Of a stretch of DNA of 20,074 nucleotides, positions 6,959-16,902 are shown in pieces (the stretch's first letter is position 1; each line of letters starts with the position of its first letter). The notes beneath the pieces are model-generated. The model had not been told where the DNA came from. It did not search any database and saw only the letters and a list, made by a program, of their open reading frames with translations. A program made the position numbers and the translations under genes. The DNA comes from a virus, in IMG/VR virus record IMGVR_UViG_3300009788_001138, positions 1 to 20,074 of that record; one strand, given 5' to 3'.

Positions 6959-7938
6959 TGTGTAGCCGCCTCTAGCACTTCAGCTAATGTGTATGTAAAC
7001 TCCCACTCTGTGTCTGCATTATAAGGCATACCAAACTCTAAGGCTAAGTCATCCTGTTCCTGATTCCAAGAGGACATATTGCATGTCTCAAAATACTGAC
7101 AGACTCTATTATATGCTAAGCATTCCTGCCAACGCTGCGGCCAAAAGTTATTCTCGTAACAGAAGATTGCTTTATTAAGGTCCATCATAAGAGTCATGCC
7201 CCAATTTAGACGGTCTAGTCTAGTCTTTTGGTACGGGAGCATCTTAGACTCAGGCCATATCTCTCCGCGATGTAGATGAGACACGGCATAGACTGTTTCA
7301 AAGTTATTAGGTTGGTCTTTCAAGACTGCATCCAGCATAGTACTGTAGCCTAATGCCTGTGGACTATACTTATACAAAGGAGCTAGCTCATCACGGTTCA
7401 TTCCTGTAGTCTTTATCTCTAATACACCTGCCTGTTCTTTCTTTCTATTCCAGATACAGACATCAGCAAAGCCACAGAAGTAATCACCGTAATCATTTAA
7501 TATTATCTTAAAGCCTAGCTCAATAGCTGGACGTTCATCAATGTATAGGAGTTCATAGTCTGTCTTATCCCACTTAACAGCCAGGGATTCAACTGCCATG
7601 AAAGCCCGTTCCAGAAATTTTCTATTCTGTTTTGTATCAGCATCCTCTACCAGCGGTGTGTATTCTAACAGAGTTATAAACAGGGCGTGGTCTAAATCTC
7701 CTGACTTGATGTAGTCTTGGAAGCCTGCGCCAACAGCTTTACCAAAGGGTAAGTCTGCATACATACCTATCCTGTCTTCATCGGATGTAGGCATACAGCA
7801 GGCAAGCTGATACTTCTTCTCACATCTGTTTAAGATATCATTAGAAGAATGTGACATGCGGAACCTAGGCCGTGGCCCAGATTCTACTGCCTCTAGTTCT
7901 ACGTTAGCTGGCGCTTTAAGCAGTTGCTTTAGACTCAT
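6955..7938 (-). CDS. Cas4-like PD-(D/E)XK exonuclease, probably Fe-S
   Basis: A nuclease of 327 residues in the PDDEXK_1/Cas4-AddB group. The catalytic core is FCGFADVCIW (D159) and VLEIKTTG (E174, K176), followed by SPQALGYSTML with Q194 and Y198, the usual motif IV. Cysteines C39 (NRCEKKY) plus C273, C280 and C286 match the one-plus-three spacing of the 4Fe-4S cluster of Cas4 and AddB nucleases. No helicase domain is fused. In phages such nucleases resect double-strand ends to supply single strands for Sak4-type recombination, and that module is two genes away. The ATG at 7938 overlaps the upstream TAA (TAATG). Confidence 0.85.
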   Translation of the reverse strand: MSLKQLLKAPANVELEAVESGPRPRFRMSHSSNDILNRCEKKYQLACCMPTSDEDRIGMYADLPFGKAVGAGFQDYIKSGDLDHALFITLLEYTPLVEDADTKQNRKFLERAFMAVESLAVKWDKTDYELLYIDERPAIELGFKIILNDYGDYFCGFADVCIWNRKKEQAGVLEIKTTGMNRDELAPLYKYSPQALGYSTMLDAVLKDQPNNFETVYAVSHLHRGEIWPESKMLPYQKTRLDRLNWGMTLMMDLNKAIFCYENNFWPQRWQECLAYNRVCQYFETCNMSSWNQEQDDLALEFGMPYNADTEWEFTYTLAEVLEAATQ

Positions 7939-8291
7939 TAAAAATCCTCTGGAGGCTTGTTGATAAGCTCTGCTAGTTTAACTCTACTAATGTTACTACC
8001 AGCCTTCTTCTTATTCTGCTTCAGAGTATCCTTGACTAGTATTACATTAGATAGCTTCTTAATGCCTGCAACTAGTGTGCCTACATCCGCATCCAATAGC
8101 TCATGTACTATCTGAGGATAGTTACGTAGAGACTCCTTTAACTCTATCAGTATCTTCCTGACAGCTTCATGAGGAACCTCATCATCTAATGCAGACTGGA
8201 GAGCAGACAGACCTTCCTTGAAAGAGTCTGGGTCATACTCTCCAGCCCCTGCTTTAGCACTATCAAACAGCACTAAGTCTTCTATAGACAT
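7938..8291 (-). CDS. Helical unknown protein
   Basis: A 117-residue, probably helical protein with an acidic first half and a basic tail (KDTLKQNKKKAGSNISRVK). The start is the ATG at 8291, which has AGGAG five bases upstream. The frame is open to 8459, but that extension shadows the signal-peptide gene and is rejected. A coiled-coil-like stretch runs from about 25 to 60. It directly precedes, and is coupled (TAATG) to, the Cas4-like nuclease, so it may be a partner of it. No family is recognised. Confidence 0.7.
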   Translation of the reverse strand: MSIEDLVLFDSAKAGAGEYDPDSFKEGLSALQSALDDEVPHEAVRKILIELKESLRNYPQIVHELLDADVGTLVAGIKKLSNVILVKDTLKQNKKKAGSNISRVKLAELINKPPEDF

Positions 8292-10286: not shown

Positions 10287-10474
10287 TGTTTTGTCTCGTG
10301 TTCTATAGCTGCTGATACTGCTGCTCTTAGTGCCGCAGTAAATGACCTTACTAGGATAAGCCTAGCTGTATCAGTCATGTGTACCCCATACTTATGCTGC
10401 CAAGCCATGACTAATGCTTGTATCTCAGGGTCTAAGGAGCTAAACATCTCCTTATCCCTCTCTTCAGTGGTCAT
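10283..10474 (-). CDS. Small helical protein, paralogue of the next gene upstream
   Basis: A 63-residue all-helical protein. Its middle (LVMAWQHKYGV, then TAALRAAVSAAIEHE) aligns with the middle of the 121-residue protein encoded immediately upstream (LLRLWKEKYDL, TAALVSAYQ, ISEHVE): the same W, KY, TAAL and EH positions with a short insert in the longer copy. Junctions are TAATG upstream and ATGA downstream. Function unknown. It may be the tail-less partner of a two-protein complex. Confidence 0.65.
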   Translation of the reverse strand: MTTEERDKEMFSSLDPEIQALVMAWQHKYGVHMTDTARLILVRSFTAALRAAVSAAIEHETKQ

Positions 10475-10839
10475 TATAAATCATCCGTACTAGGTAGCTT
10501 CTGAGTCAGGCTTAAACTCTTCTTTTTCTTGGCTACCTTTTTCTTAGCTTTCTTCTTAGCCTTTTTCTTAGCTACCTTCTTCTTAGTCTGCTTCTTCTCA
10601 AGCTGCTTAGTCATAAGTGTAGCCTCTACATGCTCACTTATTGCATCAAGGACTAGACTTAACCCTCTTTGATAGGCAGATACTAAAGCAGCAGTTATCT
10701 TTAGCGTTAGTATCTCATAGTCCTTATCATCAAACAGATACAGTGGAAGGTCATACTTCTCTTTCCAGAGTCGTAGGAGAACCTTACCATCTAAACCTGC
10801 ATCCTTGGGTATAGGTATTTTATCAACTTCAGGATTCAT
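10474..10839 (-). CDS. Helical protein with histone H1-like lysine-rich tail
   Basis: A 121-residue protein. Residues 15-75 form a helical domain shared with the neighbouring 63-residue protein. Residues 80-107 are almost only lysine and alanine (KKKVAKKKAKKK-type repeats), like histone H1 or bacterial HU-type tails, and would bind nucleic acid without sequence preference. The end (SLSLTQKLPSTDDL) returns to neutral, with an SLxxxL peptide. The ATG at 10839 has AGGAG six bases upstream. Slippage on A-rich codons could vary the tail length. Confidence 0.7.
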   Translation of the reverse strand: MNPEVDKIPIPKDAGLDGKVLLRLWKEKYDLPLYLFDDKDYEILTLKITAALVSAYQRGLSLVLDAISEHVEATLMTKQLEKKQTKKKVAKKKAKKKAKKKVAKKKKSLSLTQKLPSTDDL

Positions 10840-11070: not shown

Positions 11071-13388
11071 ACTGATACCTCTACATCTTCATCAAGATAG
11101 CCTGAGTTAAAGTATTCTACCTTCTCCTTCAGACTATTACCCTTTATCCGAGGACTAGTAATAGCTTTACGGATAAGCTCCGGTCTAGCTATTATAACAA
11201 GCTCTTCTCTTGCTCTTGTCATAGCCGTATACAGTAGCTCTCGGCTAAGCATGGTAGCATGATTCTTATGGAACAGGAGAAAGACTCTACGCCACTCACT
11301 ACCCTGTGCCTTATGGACGCTAAGAGCATAGCCAAGCTGGAATATTTGACCGTTAAGTTCTCCAGCAGAGCTTACAGTTATCTCCTGTCCAGTCTCTAAC
11401 TCTACTGATACAATATGACTAGCTAACTGCTTACGCTCTTCATCCTCGTCTATATCAGATAGAACATCCAGTTCCATGTTGCTAAGGTCTAAGTCCTCAC
11501 CATTCATTACAGCAGCAGCACTATCCGCTGCCTTTCCGATATAGAATCCAAAGCGAGATAAGTTAACAGAAGGAGACATAGGCTTCTTACCCATGTAGGA
11601 CATATTACTGCGTATATGTACTATCTTACCTTCCATCTTATTAACTAAGACATTATCTCCGACTGCTAGATAATGCTTCTCATATCCGGCTATTATCTCA
11701 AAGACTTCTGCATTACGCTCTTCTCCTAGAATCTGTGCTATCCTGTAATTGATTATCTTAGTCCCCATAGCATTCTTATTGAATGGAATAAGGACTATAT
11801 CCTCATCAGGATTATATGTCCAAGCCTCTTCTTCTAGCTTATCTATTTCTCTTTCACTCTTAGGCTTAGAAAGCAAAGCCTTACGCTCTTCTAGGGTTAG
11901 CGTATCGTAATCTACTAGAGCCTTCCGCCACTTGATTACCCTTCTCCTGTTCTCAATAGCATTGCCAAAGAAGGTTCCCATTGCACGGCTCATAGTCTCT
12001 TCTGGCTGTGCAGTCTTACTGTTACCAGTCATCCACTTGACTTCAGGCTTAGTCTCCTTAATAGGATTACCGTGAAGTACAGCATGAGCATTAGCTATGA
12101 TAGGATTGTCTAATGCCTGTCTGTATACGATATCTAGATGGACGATTGGTAGCTTAGTAAGAGCGTAGGACATAATGCTCTTGCCAAATACAGGAGGGAG
12201 TTGATTGATATCTCCGACGTAGATTATCTGTACGCCAGGATTAAGTGCTGCCCGTAACTCTTCCCACAAGTCTAAGCCTAGCATAGAGGCTTCTTCTATA
12301 ATAAGGTGAGTTACGCTAAGCGGGTTCCATTGTCCCCGCTGAGGCTTAAACATTTGAACCTCTCGCTCCTGCTTTTCTGACCATAGCATAACTGGAGAGT
12401 ATTCTAATAGGTTATGTACAGTCTGTAATGAGCCTTCCATCTCAGCATGAAGCTCAAAGTTATGGCTGATGATACGGGCTACGTTACCTATAGCCTTACG
12501 AGTATAAGCACAGACGCAAGCAGACGGACCAATTATTCTCCTTCCACTCCTGTCATTACGTCTATAGTCTATATCGTTAACTTTTTCTTGGTGATGATGT
12601 AGGAGAGACATAAGTACAGCTTCAATAGTAGTAGATTTACCTGTACCTGCTTCTCCTGTTAGAACAAAGGATTTACCATCAATAGCCATCTGGACAGCAC
12701 TAGTCTGTTTCGCATTTAGTTCTATTGGCCGCCCGTATCTGTCTAATAGCTTAATGGTATCGGATTCAGCACTTAGGATAGACGGCTCGAAAGCCTCATC
12801 TATTACTACATCAGACTGCTTAGCCCTACGCATCTTATCTTTAAGAGACAGACTAGAGCCAGCGATAATTGGTCTGGGTATATCTTCTGCATTCCTCATA
12901 TAAGAACCCCCTGCACCAAGCTCCTGATTAGGAGTGTCAGACAGTGGTACAGAGGCAGGAGTAGTACTGGTGACAGGATACGCCTTCTTAGCCACAAGTG
13001 GTTTAACCTGTTCAGCTTTCTCCTTAACCGTTCGCCTTAGCTTATCAGCTAGACTAGGCTTCTTGTTAGGCGGAGCGACTGCAACTGTAGATACTGGCTC
13101 GCTGTCTAGAACAGGTTGCACAGGCGTTGCAGCCACTCCTTTAGGTTTAGCTAGCATGTCTTTCAAGCTAGGCTTATTGTTAGGCTGTGGGTCACACTTA
13201 GGACAGGTTCCTTCTCCTATCCTTCTATGCTTGCCCATTCCTGCCCCGCAATAGGAGCAGAACTCTTTAGGTGGAACCACCGGAGCAGGAGAATCAGGCT
13301 CCCTATACACAACCGGGCTAGGCTGAGACTCCGGCGGTTCCGAAACTGGTTTATTCTGATACTTAGGTAGGCTATCAAGGAGGCTCAT
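11067..13388 (-). CDS. SF1 helicase of the RecD/Pif1/Dda type with repetitive N-terminal tail
   Basis: A 773-residue helicase. The core (about 210-735) shows Walker A GEAGTGKST at 245-253, motif II IIEEASML with E365-E366, motif III GDINQLPPV at 392-400, motif V YALSVHKAQGSEW at 687-699 and motif VI YTAMTRARE at 720-728. The N-terminal 200 residues are low-complexity and proline-rich, with a CSYC/CPKC zinc ribbon (C44, C47, C62, C65) and three copies of a K-P-S-L-x-D-x-L type peptide (72-83, 109-119, 179-190). It probably unwinds DNA 5'-3' during recombination or replication restart. Coupled by ATGA on both sides. Confidence 0.9.
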   Translation of the reverse strand: MSLLDSLPKYQNKPVSEPPESQPSPVVYREPDSPAPVVPPKEFCSYCGAGMGKHRRIGEGTCPKCDPQPNNKPSLKDMLAKPKGVAATPVQPVLDSEPVSTVAVAPPNKKPSLADKLRRTVKEKAEQVKPLVAKKAYPVTSTTPASVPLSDTPNQELGAGGSYMRNAEDIPRPIIAGSSLSLKDKMRRAKQSDVVIDEAFEPSILSAESDTIKLLDRYGRPIELNAKQTSAVQMAIDGKSFVLTGEAGTGKSTTIEAVLMSLLHHHQEKVNDIDYRRNDRSGRRIIGPSACVCAYTRKAIGNVARIISHNFELHAEMEGSLQTVHNLLEYSPVMLWSEKQEREVQMFKPQRGQWNPLSVTHLIIEEASMLGLDLWEELRAALNPGVQIIYVGDINQLPPVFGKSIMSYALTKLPIVHLDIVYRQALDNPIIANAHAVLHGNPIKETKPEVKWMTGNSKTAQPEETMSRAMGTFFGNAIENRRRVIKWRKALVDYDTLTLEERKALLSKPKSEREIDKLEEEAWTYNPDEDIVLIPFNKNAMGTKIINYRIAQILGEERNAEVFEIIAGYEKHYLAVGDNVLVNKMEGKIVHIRSNMSYMGKKPMSPSVNLSRFGFYIGKAADSAAAVMNGEDLDLSNMELDVLSDIDEDEERKQLASHIVSVELETGQEITVSSAGELNGQIFQLGYALSVHKAQGSEWRRVFLLFHKNHATMLSRELLYTAMTRAREELVIIARPELIRKAITSPRIKGNSLKEKVEYFNSGYLDEDVEVSV

Positions 13389-13582
13389 GTCTGACCTCCC
13401 TGAATTATCTTAGCGTAACCCCATTTAATCTCTGCATACTCTAAGCCTGTAAAGATGGGAGTATCCTCTGCCATCTCATCCTCGCAGTCAAAGCATAGCC
13501 ACTGACCGTCTGCGAATACTTCTGCCTCTTCATCCTGGCAGAGTTCACAGCTTCCTAGTTTATGATAACCTGAACCTTTCAT
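13385..13582 (-). CDS. Small zinc-ribbon protein
   Basis: A 65-residue protein with SCELC at 11-15 and WLCFDC at 28-33 (C12, C15, C30, C33), a one-site zinc ribbon, followed by an acidic stretch and a tryptophan-containing tail (EYAEIKWGYAKI). Coupled by ATGA to the genes on both sides, between the 356-residue protein and the SF1 helicase. Likely a protein- or DNA-binding adaptor; exact role unknown. Confidence 0.7.
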   Translation of the reverse strand: MKGSGYHKLGSCELCQDEEAEVFADGQWLCFDCEDEMAEDTPIFTGLEYAEIKWGYAKIIQGGQT

Positions 13583-14649
13583 TTAGCTACACCTTTCTGC
13601 CTTGGGCTAGTACGTGGCTTGAGCATATTCATCAAGCTAGGCTTTTTCTCGTGGCTTTTTTCTACCACTTCGCCCAGGAATGTGTTTTGGAGTGTATACT
13701 TAGCTACGTTAGCCATTGTTCCAATCTCTCCTGTAACAAAGGCATAGCCTATACGCTCCATGACCGTAGACCAATCTTGTTTAAGCTGCGGGGAGTTGCT
13801 AAGCTCTACTAGTCGATTGCCTAGCTTCTCATGGGTATCTGGACCGTAGTCAGCCCAATGAGATATAGCCATCTCTATATTGAGATACTGCTGCTTGGAT
13901 ATAACTTTAGCAGTCTTTAAGCTCTTACAACCCTCTAGGCATTTATCTATGCCCCAGTCTATATGCTGACCACTAAGAGGCTTATCTGCCCGCCTAACTC
14001 TAGCGCGAGCGGCTATCTCCTGGTCATAGACTGTTACTGATGCCTGAGTCCTTCCTCGCAGTCTAGGCAGCTTACTAGAATCATCTTCTATGATAGAGCC
14101 TAAGTAAGTGCCAAGAGAATCTGACCAACGCTTAGTCTTATAGCTCTTGTCAGTCTGGTAATCATCATAGACTGTGGACAGGTTTATCTTATCTGCTGAT
14201 TTCCTAGTCCAGTTAGTCAGCCTGCGTGCCCACCATAGGAGCTGAGCGCGGCGTCTATGAGCACAGAGAGCTAGGTTAAGCTCGTGCATTTGCCTACCTG
14301 ACAGTCGGCTAAAGCTAAGCCCTAAGTCTGCCAGTTGAGCAAAGATTACACCGACAATAAAAGACTTAGCTAGTATCTGCTCCTGCTTGGGTATGTCAAA
14401 GTCTGACTCAATACCCAGGCTGATGTCTTGCCAGTCTTTATTGTATAGCTTCTCTGGTTCTAGCTTCTTATTAGCCTCATGCTTTAGGATAGCCCGCATG
14501 GTATCACAGTCTAAGAATGCAGGATGTACCTTATTGACTTCTGCTACGTATTGAAGTCCTATACTATCCTGTAAGTAGAATTTAACGCCAGAAATAGAAC
14601 AGTATATCTGTTGTATCCTGGCCTTGCCTTTATCCTGATTGGTAATCAT
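13579..14649 (-). CDS. First gene of the early operon; unknown protein
   Basis: A 356-residue soluble protein that begins with CSISGVKFYL near 17-26 and HPAFLDCDTM near 42-51, a pattern I have seen in uncharacterised phage proteins beside RecD-like helicases, then a long helical, arginine-rich body (LCAHRRRAQLLWWARRL near 126-142). No nuclease, polymerase or ATPase motif is visible. The last 24 residues include KKPSLMNMLKPR (335-346), the same peptide type as in the helicase tail. The ATG at 14649 has AGGAG nine bases upstream, and lies about 40 bases after the likely start of the leftward transcript. An early regulator, a primase-like factor or a recombination mediator are all possible. Confidence 0.7.
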   Translation of the reverse strand: MITNQDKGKARIQQIYCSISGVKFYLQDSIGLQYVAEVNKVHPAFLDCDTMRAILKHEANKKLEPEKLYNKDWQDISLGIESDFDIPKQEQILAKSFIVGVIFAQLADLGLSFSRLSGRQMHELNLALCAHRRRAQLLWWARRLTNWTRKSADKINLSTVYDDYQTDKSYKTKRWSDSLGTYLGSIIEDDSSKLPRLRGRTQASVTVYDQEIAARARVRRADKPLSGQHIDWGIDKCLEGCKSLKTAKVISKQQYLNIEMAISHWADYGPDTHEKLGNRLVELSNSPQLKQDWSTVMERIGYAFVTGEIGTMANVAKYTLQNTFLGEVVEKSHEKKPSLMNMLKPRTSPRQKGVAK

Positions 14650-14697
14650 AGCCTGATACTCCTATAACAACCTATATAAGCCCGGTTAGTAGGAAGT

Positions 14698-14727
14698 ATT
14701 TTACCATGATATCCGGCAATCGGTCAA
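14698..14727 (-). promoter_or_regulatory. Leftward early promoter, sigma70-like
   Basis: Read on the minus strand: -35 TTGACC (14727-14722), an 18-base spacer and -10 TAAAAT (14703-14698). Each box differs from consensus at one position. It lies about 50 bases before the ATG of the first early gene and points into the whole minus-strand operon. No other promoter as good is seen in this arm. Confidence 0.6.
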
Positions 14728-14774
14728 GGGATAAAACTCCTTTAAAATCAACGACTTACGACACTTTTTATCCC
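14728..14774. repeat. 9-bp inverted repeat beside the leftward promoter
   Basis: GGGATAAAA (14728-14736) and TTTTATCCC (14766-14774) are perfect inverted copies 29 bases apart. The first arm touches the -35 box of the leftward promoter, a natural place for an operator or activator site. The stretch between is A+T-rich. Confidence 0.5.
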
Positions 14775-14776
14775 GA

Positions 14777-15134
14777 AATCCTGTTATCCTGTTAAATCTG
14801 GTAGCCTGTCCCTCCTGAGTTGCATGGTCTAGGATACAGGATACCATTGACGTATGATTCTGCACCCCTTTCAAAAAATAGAACTGAAGAATATCCTAGT
14901 AGTCTACAAGTAGGCGGGGGTAGTCTAACAAGTATACCCTAAGCATAGGAGGCACAGCCTACTCAAATCCGTGAGATTGTAGCATTTCCGTGACTAAATC
15001 TATCCTGCTGCCATAGCGCATCCGTTACTTTATTACTCCTGCGCGGGCCAAATAATCTATTACTTCGTGGGAACCTGGTGCTGATGTGCCAGCCAAATAG
15101 GAACTAACAGGATACTACTGACAGGCTCAGGATA
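14777..15134. repeat. Cluster of CAGGATA/TATCCTG heptamers (possible iterons or operators)
   Basis: Exact copies of CAGGATA or its complement lie at 14785-14791, 14837-14843, 15001-15007, 15108-15114 and 15128-15134. One-mismatch copies lie at 14777-14783, 14830-14836 and 14892-14898. Two pairs are tandem (spaced 8 and 7 bases). The longer form ACAGGATAC occurs twice (14836-14844 and 15107-15115). One more copy is at 16810-16816, upstream of the small terminase. The motif also occurs in coding sequence, but far less densely. The cluster spans the gap between divergent promoters, where origin iterons or repressor sites are expected. Confidence 0.5.
14900..14934. repeat. Direct repeat pair TAGTCTA(A)CAAGTA
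   Basis: TAGTCTACAAGTA (14900-14912) and TAGTCTAACAAGTA (14921-14934) differ by one inserted A and start 21 bases apart, about two helical turns, with a G-rich spacer (GGCGGGGG). The spacing suits a pair of protein sites on the same DNA face. Confidence 0.5.
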
Positions 15135-15170
15135 TTGCCAGAAGTGAGAACCTGTACACAAAATGAGTAC

Positions 15171-15200
15171 TTGACGCGAGACCCGATTCTATGCTTTAAT
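15171..15200 (+). promoter_or_regulatory. Rightward promoter, sigma70-like
   Basis: -35 TTGACG (15171-15176) and -10 TTTAAT (15195-15200) with an 18-base spacer, about 70 bases before the ATG at 15269. The overlapping TATGCT gives an alternative -10 but with a spacer that is too short. It should drive the 213-residue gene. Confidence 0.55.
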
Positions 15201-15268
15201 GTTCGCACGGTTCAGGAATTGTCCCGAATCAGTCTAACCCTAACGATTCAAACAGGAGAATCTAACCA

Positions 15269-15910
15269 ATGGGTAAAGAAGATACTTTCACTAATAAGCT
15301 GGTACTGATGATTCGTACCACCATCAATAAGAAGCGTATTGATGTCGGTACAGTCGATGTGCCTTATCCTACTCTCTTCGATATCAGCGAGCGGCTGAGC
15401 CTCCCCGATAAGTTCCAGGAGGATGAAGAGGGAAACAAGAGCCCAGTTTACGACGACGAGGAATTGCAATGGGCTCAGGATGCTATGCTTGATGCAGTCA
15501 AGCGAGAAGCGAGGAACGTGACTAAAGTAGTAGAGGATAAGGAATCCGACACTGGTTACGCTCTAGACTTCACTCGGCCTATCCCTGAGAACTTCGCTCA
15601 GTTATGCGAGGAACATAAGAGACAGGGCGGGGAGTATCTGAAAATCAGGCACGAAGCTATAGCAGACTTTGGCAAGTGGCTTACCAGTCTAGACAAGAGC
15701 CAAGCGGCGATGGACATGGCTAAAAAGCTATTCTCCGACCCAGCCGCTCTTGATGTTAGCCCGGTAAAGACTCGTAACACGTTCCACGAGAATTACCTGA
15801 CACCCTATATAGAAGGGTTAGAGGCTGACACTAGAGAGCGTTACACTCAGGTACTAGAGAAAGTTATCACTAGCGCCGAGAGTGAGGAAGCAGCAGCAGA
15901 CGACTTCTAA
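15269..15910 (+). CDS. Unknown protein with SSB-like acidic C-terminus
   Basis: A 213-residue protein, the first plus-strand gene, with AGGAG ten bases before its ATG. It starts with a beta-like strand region (LVLMIRTTINKKRIDVGTVD), then is mostly helical and highly charged. The C-terminus is SAESEEAAADDF: acidic with a terminal phenylalanine, like the tails of T7 gp2.5 and bacterial SSB that bind replication partners. No OB-fold can be confirmed by eye. The gene has its own promoter and is followed by a strong hairpin, so it is probably a separately controlled, abundant product. It could be a DNA-binding protein or an early host-takeover protein. Confidence 0.7.
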   Translation: MGKEDTFTNKLVLMIRTTINKKRIDVGTVDVPYPTLFDISERLSLPDKFQEDEEGNKSPVYDDEELQWAQDAMLDAVKREARNVTKVVEDKESDTGYALDFTRPIPENFAQLCEEHKRQGGEYLKIRHEAIADFGKWLTSLDKSQAAMDMAKKLFSDPAALDVSPVKTRNTFHENYLTPYIEGLEADTRERYTQVLEKVITSAESEEAAADDF

Positions 15911-15941
15911 GCTAGAGCCTAGCCTAAGAGTCGTAACCTAT

Positions 15942-15980
15942 AATCCCCGCCTAGCTATTGAATTAGACTAGGCGGGGATT
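15942..15980 (+). terminator. Strong 13-bp stem-loop after the 213-residue gene
   Basis: AATCCCCGCCTAG (15942-15954) pairs perfectly with CTAGGCGGGGATT (15968-15980), loop 13 bases. It starts 32 bases after the stop codon. The sequence after it (CTCTAATTG) is only weakly T-rich, so it may be an imperfect intrinsic terminator or a 3' stabilising hairpin. Confidence 0.55.
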
Positions 15981-16067
15981 CTCTAATTGTGACAGGCATC
16001 ACAGATAAGCTAGAGCCTATCAACTACACTCTAATTACGAATCAGGCACACACAGAGGAAACAGCAG

Positions 16068-16328
16068 ATGGACACTTCAGGAATTACACACACATTTATA
16101 GGACTTGCAGAGATAATCAGCAGTTACGACGCAGCCCGACGCAAGTTCTACAGCCATAAGAGCCTCTATCAGATATGCCGGGGACATGCTAGACACGGCG
16201 GAGCCTGGCCTTGCCTCACTAGGAAGCATAGGCTAAAGATGGAGAAGGCTGCGAAGGAAGCGAGACAATGGCAGACCCTACGCGACAACCTGGAGAGGAT
16301 GAGAGCCAAAGCATTAGACGACGCGTAG
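16068..16328 (+). CDS. Small basic unknown protein
   Basis: An 86-residue, strongly basic, helical protein. Its ATG has GAGGA about eight bases upstream. The middle (ICRGHARHGGAWPCLTRKH, about 36-54) carries two cysteines and three histidines, a possible but unproven metal site, and the end is a long charged helix (KAAKEARQWQTLRDNLERM). It stands alone between two hairpins, outside the early operon and the packaging genes. No family is recognised. Confidence 0.6.
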   Translation: MDTSGITHTFIGLAEIISSYDAARRKFYSHKSLYQICRGHARHGGAWPCLTRKHRLKMEKAAKEARQWQTLRDNLERMRAKALDDA

Positions 16329-16339
16329 ACTAGAGACCG

Positions 16340-16370
16340 TAGGCTAGCCAAGGATGGCAGCCTATCTTCT
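16340..16370 (+). terminator. Terminator-like hairpin after the 86-residue gene
   Basis: TAGGCT-A-GCCA (16340-16350), loop AGGA, TGGC-AGCCTA (16355-16364): a 10-bp stem with one bulged A, followed by TCTTCT. It starts 12 bases past the stop codon at 16328. The pyrimidine tail is moderate, so intrinsic termination is likely but not certain. Confidence 0.5.
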
Positions 16371-16460
16371 TCGGGACAGCCTACTAGTACTTAATATCCT
16401 AAAAATCGCGCTCACTACGTTCGCGTAAGTTCAAGGAGTTCGCTGCGCTCAGGAAGAATT

Positions 16461-16507
16461 GTCTTATTAAGATAAGAGCCTTAGACTCTACGAGTCACGG
16501 CTAAGAC
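16461..16507 (+). ncRNA. Folded RNA-like element, identity unknown
   Basis: GTCTTA (16461-16466) can pair with TAAGAC (16502-16507). Inside, GACTC-TAC-GAGTC (16484-16496) forms a tight hairpin, extended by AGCC/GGCT (16477-16480/16499-16502) in an alternative fold; CTTAT/ATAAG (16463-16476) forms another. The layout is compact but lacks the T-arm and CCA end of a tRNA. It is a candidate small structured RNA or mRNA leader only. Confidence 0.25.
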
Positions 16508-16562
16508 AGTAAGACTAAGGAGTTGCTACGCAACATTGTCTCATTGTCCACACTCTAGCTAA

Positions 16563-16598
16563 GCTACAACAGCCTACTATAGCTTACAGTATTGTAGC
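16563..16598 (+). repeat. Inverted repeat GCTACAA/TTGTAGC
   Basis: Perfect 7-bp arms at 16563-16569 and 16592-16598, with an inner TACT/AGTA pair and a loop. No T-run follows. It may fold in an RNA or act as a protein site. Confidence 0.4.
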
Positions 16599-16725
16599 CA
16601 TAGCTAGCCATAATAAGAAAGCTAAGAACAAATGAGCTACGCTATTAGTCTATATTGTCAACACTATAGAGCAGTGGCGGTCATCTTAATACTGTAGGCT
16701 AAGTCTCCCCGTACACAACTAGCCT

Positions 16726-16749
16726 AGGCCCACCCCCGAAGGCCTTTTT
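16726..16749 (+). terminator. Intrinsic terminator candidate with T-run
   Basis: AGGCC (16726-16730), a 10-base C-rich loop, GGCCT (16741-16745), then four more T residues to 16749. The stem is short (5 bp) but GC-rich and followed by a real U-tract, the best of the plus-strand hairpins on that score. It would isolate the packaging genes from upstream transcription. Confidence 0.5.
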
Positions 16750-16902
16750 AGCTTACCGCCTGCCGTCCCTATCAATAGCCAGCAGGGAATAAATATTACA
16801 ATTTTATACCAGGATACCATACTGCACTCCGTGTTCCGACTATTCCACAATCCCCAGCTAAATCTGTGTTAGAATATCGGTAAGTCACAGACAGGTGCGC
16901 CA

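Follow-up and report, generated by a model that had tools for sequence, protein, structure and literature searches.

In temperate phages such as lambda and Mu, the divergent early control regions (OL/OR of lambda, the early operator of Mu) combine clustered operators with IHF. Short repeats are also known from replication origins. The repeats of iteron origins are direct, about 17-22 bp long and set at regular helical intervals, and the origin of the satellite phage P4 carries type I octamer repeats. LUZ24-like phages have the nick consensus TACTRTGMC.

Here we describe a phage locus that resembles several of these systems in part. The stretch of DNA analysed, hereafter the window, is a complete IMG/VR virus record of 20,074 bases. 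Its proteins form a tailed-phage set: Pfam and PHROGs scans recognised the terminase large subunit and the portal on the right side, and the left side, which is read leftward, encodes a Dda/RecD-like helicase, a family A DNA polymerase, a DUF3987/primase-like protein and a Sak4-like protein. On the minus strand at 10474-10839 there is also a gene for a 121-aa product with a lysine-rich KKK/AKK tail, encoded over a tandem repeat at 10522-10598.

As in lambda and Mu, two putative divergent promoters, clustered short sites and an IHF-like site are found together in a non-coding spacer, but a PHROGs scan of 20 products recognised neither a repressor nor an integrase, and the boxes are 7 bp long and irregular, most of them lying at a good distance upstream of the promoters. 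The likeness to the P4 origin lies in short repeats in both orientations, irregularly spaced in non-coding DNA; the word is a different one, no P4-type initiator was identified, and an origin role here would be an analogy. A literature search for the term 'type I repeats' gave no match among the papers listed. Like plasmid and phage iterons, the repeats are clustered in non-coding DNA near replication genes, but iterons are longer, direct and regularly spaced, whereas the repeats described here are neither regular nor unidirectional. The LUZ24-like nick consensus was rejected, its single match in the window being at chance level.

The nearest cultured phages, Polaromonas phage Tiera (OQ067478), EBPR podovirus 3 and Pseudomonas PaP2/119X (PaP2 being one of the Fredfastierviridae), are distant, with 40-46% identity in TerL and 33-35% in PolA. 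In Tiera the arms diverge in the same way, from a 780-bp spacer with a homologue of the 213-aa protein described below on the rightward side, but this spacer is without the cluster (one AGGATA) and carries instead a tandem pair of about 72 bp (L042, approximately 7929-8072). The available text of the Tiera paper (PMC9959647) has no occurrence of 'intergenic' or 'promoter'. Of 3594 papers in which the letters of the heptamer occur, the 15 listed were unrelated by title, and searches for described divergent or IHF-containing phage control regions and for this phage group gave nothing on the spacer among the matches listed.

The spacer between the divergent arms

The two arms of the window diverge from a 619-bp non-coding spacer (14650-15268). 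The first leftward gene (13579-14649, minus strand) encodes a 356-aa protein of a family for which no known relatives were found, and the first rightward gene (15269-15910, plus strand) encodes a 213-aa protein without an assigned family. No ORF of at least 60 aa is confined to the spacer, and the sole one entering it (15248-15469, minus strand, 73 aa) runs antisense to the gene for the 213-aa protein. In seven of seven records the divergence point is occupied by a spacer, 618-810 bp in length; those of G005 and G006 contain a short ORF (89 and 103 aa, respectively).

Two close IMG/VR relatives have the same region, record G001 (47.4 kb; L022) and record G002 (29.7 kb; L003). L002 and L020 are identical to L003 over the 430 bp compared and therefore were not counted as a third relative. 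At its two ends G001 has copies of a stretch of about 339 bp, which differ by one mismatch or more. The spacer equivalents measure 618 bp in G001 and 648 bp in G002, and identity among the three spacers is 52-55%.

Each arm is faced by a predicted sigma-70-like promoter. The leftward one (14698-14727, minus strand) reads TTGACC-18-TAAAAT, with TG before the -10, and its counterparts in the alignment are TTGACA-17-TATTAT in G001 and TTGACT-18-TATTCT in G002. The rightward one (15171-15200, plus strand), read from the sequence and then checked, is TTGACG-18-TTTAAT with TGC before the -10, aligned with TTGACA-17-TAAACT in G001 and TTGACG-17-TACTTT in G002. Moreover, a TTGAC-type promoter was found upstream of the 213-aa homologue in seven of nine distant loci by raw count. 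Judged from sequence only, the divergent promoters that the original prediction had placed around the cluster are borne out, with a conserved TTGAC-type promoter on each side. A third, weak promoter for the rightward direction is possible at 14868-14897, where a TTGAAA-like and a TATCCT-like element, 16-18 bp apart, are conserved.

An IHF-like site, AATCAACGACTTA (14746-14758, plus strand), is the sole exact match in the window to the consensus WATCAANNNNTTR, as quoted in the available text of PMC10380432. One match against a shuffle mean of 0.84 is not significant alone, and since about one full match per 20 kb arises by chance, only its conserved position counts. The core TCAANGACTTR is found at spacer position 99 in all three genomes, G001 and G002 being one base short of the full consensus. 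We predict an IHF site here, given that the window meets the consensus exactly and that the core TCAANNNNTTR is kept in place in both relatives. An inverted repeat around it (GGGATAAAA / TTTTATCCC, 14728-14774) is not conserved as such in the relatives.

The most conserved block of the spacer, TTTT-nn-TCCCGAAATCCT (14765-14789, plus strand), has 19 of 25 columns invariant in the three genomes. It was found nowhere else in the genome contigs searched, and in viral contigs only in the G001 and G002 relatives. Two further well-conserved stretches have 16 of 25 columns invariant: 14733-14757, which includes the IHF-like site, and 14705-14729, at the leftward promoter. The heptamers are not the best-conserved parts of the spacer in this alignment of the window, G001 and G002. 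No Rfam match to an RNA element was obtained within the window.

The heptamer cluster and its chance level

Exact CAGGATA occurs five times in the spacer, at 14785-14791 (minus strand), 14837-14843 (plus), 15001-15007 (minus), 15108-15114 (plus) and, 20 bp past the fourth copy, 15128-15134 (plus). The original prediction of five exact copies in both orientations within about 360 bases of non-coding DNA agrees with these positions, and so does that of two copies with a longer form of the heptamer, ACAGGATAC, at 14837 and 15108. Near copies, which it had put at three, include those at 14777 (ACAGGATT), 14830-14836 (TAGGATA, plus strand, abutting the second exact copy) and 14892-14898 (TAGGATA, minus strand, in a TATCCYAG context conserved in the alignment with relatives), but a one-mismatch rule counts eight near copies in the spacer, not three. 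The first exact copy is part of an 8-bp tandem (ATCCTGTT twice; 14778-14794, 2.1 copies), and the spacer has no other tandem array.

Three additional exact copies, all on the minus strand, are found within the 5' end of the 356-aa gene (14565-14571, 14614-14620 and 14631-14637), so that the full cluster amounts to eight copies in 570 bp. At the first of these places the relatives are without AGGATA. Successive sites are irregularly spaced (49, 17, 154, 45, 7, 55, 109, 107 and 20 bp) and lie in both orientations. The next most clustered 7-mer of the window reaches five per 580 bp.

Over the whole window, 16 exact copies were counted against a mean of 4.11 and a largest value of 10 in 100 dinucleotide shuffles, and the excess that had been predicted over a shuffled background survives composition-matched controls. 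The density is 8.1 per kb in the spacer versus 0.57 per kb in the rest of the window, a 14-fold difference, of which the ten-fold first estimated by eye was a fair reading. An order-3 model of the window gives 0.41 copies for the 619-bp spacer, where five are observed.

Because the word was picked after viewing the sequence, controls that allow for any other word matter here. Among spacer-only order-3 simulations, five or more copies of CAGGATA appeared in 0 of 2000, and five or more of some 7-mer in 0.85%. When the whole 20 kb was simulated 150 times, 20 of the simulations had some 7-mer with at least five copies in 360 bp, and one had some 7-mer with at least eight in 580 bp. Five copies in 360 bp are therefore only moderately unusual and eight in 570 bp are rare. 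The heptamer cluster is real, and the part first bounded is less striking than the whole.

The word in related genomes and in the rest of the DNA

In both close relatives, where conservation had been expected, the spacer is enriched in a degenerate word, YAGGMTA, but neither the exact heptamer nor most site positions are conserved. CAGGATA counts in the spacers of the window, G001 and G002 are 5, 0 and 2, those of AGGATA 7, 6 and 5, and those of YAGGMTA 8, 11 and 9. The degenerate form was defined after viewing the spacers of the window and G001, so that G002 and the second non-coding stretches described below are the more independent tests; all were positive, with P of 0.002 or less. YAGGMTA reaches 13-18 per kb in the three spacers against 1.7-2.3 elsewhere, and none of 1000 trinucleotide-preserving shuffles of each spacer attained the observed count. 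In three of three genomes the densest 600 bp for YAGGMTA fall on the spacer, with 12, 11 and 9 sites versus 5, 8 and 8 for the runners-up; in the window this peak includes the 5' end of the 356-aa gene. With 18 copies against 3.81 expected, AGGATA tops a ranking of 2072 hexamers by enrichment over the three spacers together, and it comes fourth in the two relatives alone (11 against 2.21).

Four of eight sites of the window lie within three columns of a site in each relative (P 0.008, the aligner favouring such agreement), and G001 and G002 show no agreement with each other (1 of 11). One minus-strand YAGGMTA site, CAGGCTA at 14802-14808 of the window, is common to the three genomes at spacer positions 153, 153 and 155; most other sites are not shared.

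Farther away, the spacers of G003, G004, G005 and G006 contain 3.05, 1.36, 0 and 1.23 AGGATA per kb, compared with 1.26, 1.04, 1.34 and 1.47 elsewhere in these records, and AGGMTA is in mild excess in that of G003 (four copies). At nine distant loci, several of which are the G003-G006 records, the 800 bp preceding the gene for the 213-aa homologue contained CAGGATA in none of nine and YAGGMTA zero to two times. Among the genomes compared, the heptamer cluster is lineage-specific, and the wider group shares the predicted promoter layout in which it is set.

Such a distribution could also arise without any binding site, from a lineage-wide preference for AGNNTA-like words that is freer in non-coding DNA, one word having been amplified by drift or small duplications. 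Compared with synonymous codon shuffles, AGGATA and YAGGMTA are in excess in the genes of the window (43 versus 19.1 and 35 versus 13.5), of G001 (73 versus 40.2 and 64 versus 31.4) and of G002 (34 versus 18.6 and 39 versus 18.2), and AGGATA belongs to a preferred word set with AAGCTA, AGCCTA, AGATTA and others, AAGCTA and AGCCTA among them likewise exceeding such shuffles genome-wide. The roughly twofold excess of AGGATA inside genes means that a preference for certain words throughout the genome makes up part of the signal. Additionally, AGNNTA as a class is 1.4-2.6-fold denser in spacers, and the 8-bp tandem at 14778-14794 resembles a small duplication. A second non-coding stretch of 574 bp before the small terminase gene (16329-16902) is likewise enriched, although more weakly, with five YAGGMTA sites, including the CAGGATA at 16810 that had been reported to precede this gene; over this stretch and its equivalents in G002 and G001 together, AGCCTA is enriched 6-fold and AGGATA 2.5-fold. 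Given the excess in genes and in the second stretch, the word is not confined to the divergent control region.

Word preference accounts less well for the choice of word in the spacer. Among 20 genome-preferred hexamers AGGATA has the highest ratio of spacer to rest, 5.0, the median of the other 19 being 1.44, and several are depleted, such as AAGCTA, AGGTTA and GTCCTA. The enrichment also survives the trinucleotide-preserving shuffles and recurs in three spacers as diverged as these. On balance, we regard an origin of the cluster by word preference and drift as rather unlikely.

Other compositional traits were noted in these genomes. AG/CT is over-represented 1.3-1.5-fold, and CG and A-tracts are depleted, in the window and all six relatives; TA steps (1.16-1.21) and CTAG (1.7-1.9-fold) are over-represented in the three close genomes, and the window lacks many 6-base palindromes. 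It also has almost no GATC (five sites, at 2958, 6489, 17206, 17852 and 17906). The scarcity of GATC in G001 is limited to the early arm, which takes up the first 16 kb (0-3 sites in each of the first eight 2-kb bins, then 2-20 to the last bin), and G002 has no GATC in its final 3.7 kb, around the spacer. This pattern points to avoidance of restriction or methylation, mostly in the early arm.

The spacer might alternatively be a replication origin, with the boxes as initiator-binding sites in an irregular two-way arrangement like that of the P4 type I repeats. The large spacer at the divergence point in all seven records is in line with this, as are the polymerase, helicase and primase-like genes on the leftward arm, the IHF-like site and the cumulative GC skew of G001, which is lowest at the spacer. 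The skew does change sign there, as an origin would have it, but its sign tracks gene direction, which also switches at this point, and GC skew therefore does not discriminate; moreover, the skew of G001 peaks at 16.6 kb of 47 kb rather than opposite its minimum. The GC content of the spacer equals that of the genome (0.436 versus 0.440), and its AT-richest 60 bp, at 67% AT, reach only the 97th percentile, 680 positions elsewhere in the window being equally AT-rich. The origin iterons first proposed are not supported in the strict sense, the repeats being 7 bp long, in irregular spacing and both orientations, with no regular direct repeats, no DnaA box and no exceptional AT-rich stretch. Taken together, we consider an origin role improbable, to about the same degree as word preference. 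A DnaA-dependent origin was rejected, there being no DnaA box (TTWTNCACA) in the spacers of the window and six relatives, nor any within one mismatch at 13312-16083 of the window.

A putative control region and its candidate binder

The reading that we favour, tentatively and at somewhat short of an even chance, is that of a lineage-specific cluster of putative binding sites controlling the divergent promoters of a podovirus-like phage. One sigma-70-type promoter would fire leftward into the 356-aa gene and then the replication genes, and the other rightward into the 213-aa gene and then the packaging genes. The degenerate YAGGMTA boxes between them, of which CAGGATA is the commonest form here, would be sites for a sequence-specific, probably phage-encoded protein, and the IHF-like site just upstream of the leftward -35 would provide a bend. 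The cluster, the promoter-like sequences with their conservation and the degenerate word in three genomes can be read directly from the DNA, and from them we infer protein binding to the boxes, the identity of the binder, IHF binding and a regulatory effect.

If transcription is assumed to begin 7 bases past each -10, the leftward start has its closest spacer box at about -97 and the rightward start at about -76 and -96, and the spacer boxes as a whole lie 75-440 bp upstream of the inferred starts. Such distances are too great for direct occlusion of the polymerase, and activation, looping or nucleoprotein assembly would fit better. The repressor/activator array on both arms that had been suggested from the sequence is thus plausible in its placement, but no binder was found to go with it: Pfam and PHROGs scans gave no family match for the neighbouring 356-, 213-, 86- and 183-aa products.

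Members of the 356-aa family turned up only in the three cluster-bearing genomes (the homologues in the two close relatives are 64% and 42% identical), which makes the 356-aa product the first candidate binder. This co-occurrence is confounded by kinship, which alone would yield the same result. The protein has no Pfam, PHROG, PDB or phage-record match, and its structure model is poor (pLDDT 52), with a best VIA-align Z of 6.1, to helical bundles, that is not informative. By profile, the first leftward genes of G003, G005 and G006 show no relation to it (hhalign probability 0.2%). The 213-aa protein is present across the wider group; its model (pLDDT 85) gave no Foldseek match at E of 0.001 or less and a best VIA-align Z of 5.2. 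The C-terminal half of this protein resembled lambda integrase (5j0n; Z 3.7 over 74 residues, rmsd 4.1), but too weakly for the match to be used.

A bolder version, to which we give little credence, is that the 356-aa product is a new DNA-binding protein that reads YAGGMTA and, with host IHF, would act as both initiator and arm switch, the boxes elsewhere in the genome aiding its loading.

As it stands, the cluster is a sound feature of an ordinary kind. If the proposed control region is real, it would show where control is exerted in an uncultured podovirus lineage, and YAGGMTA would be a testable word for finding its regulator or initiator.
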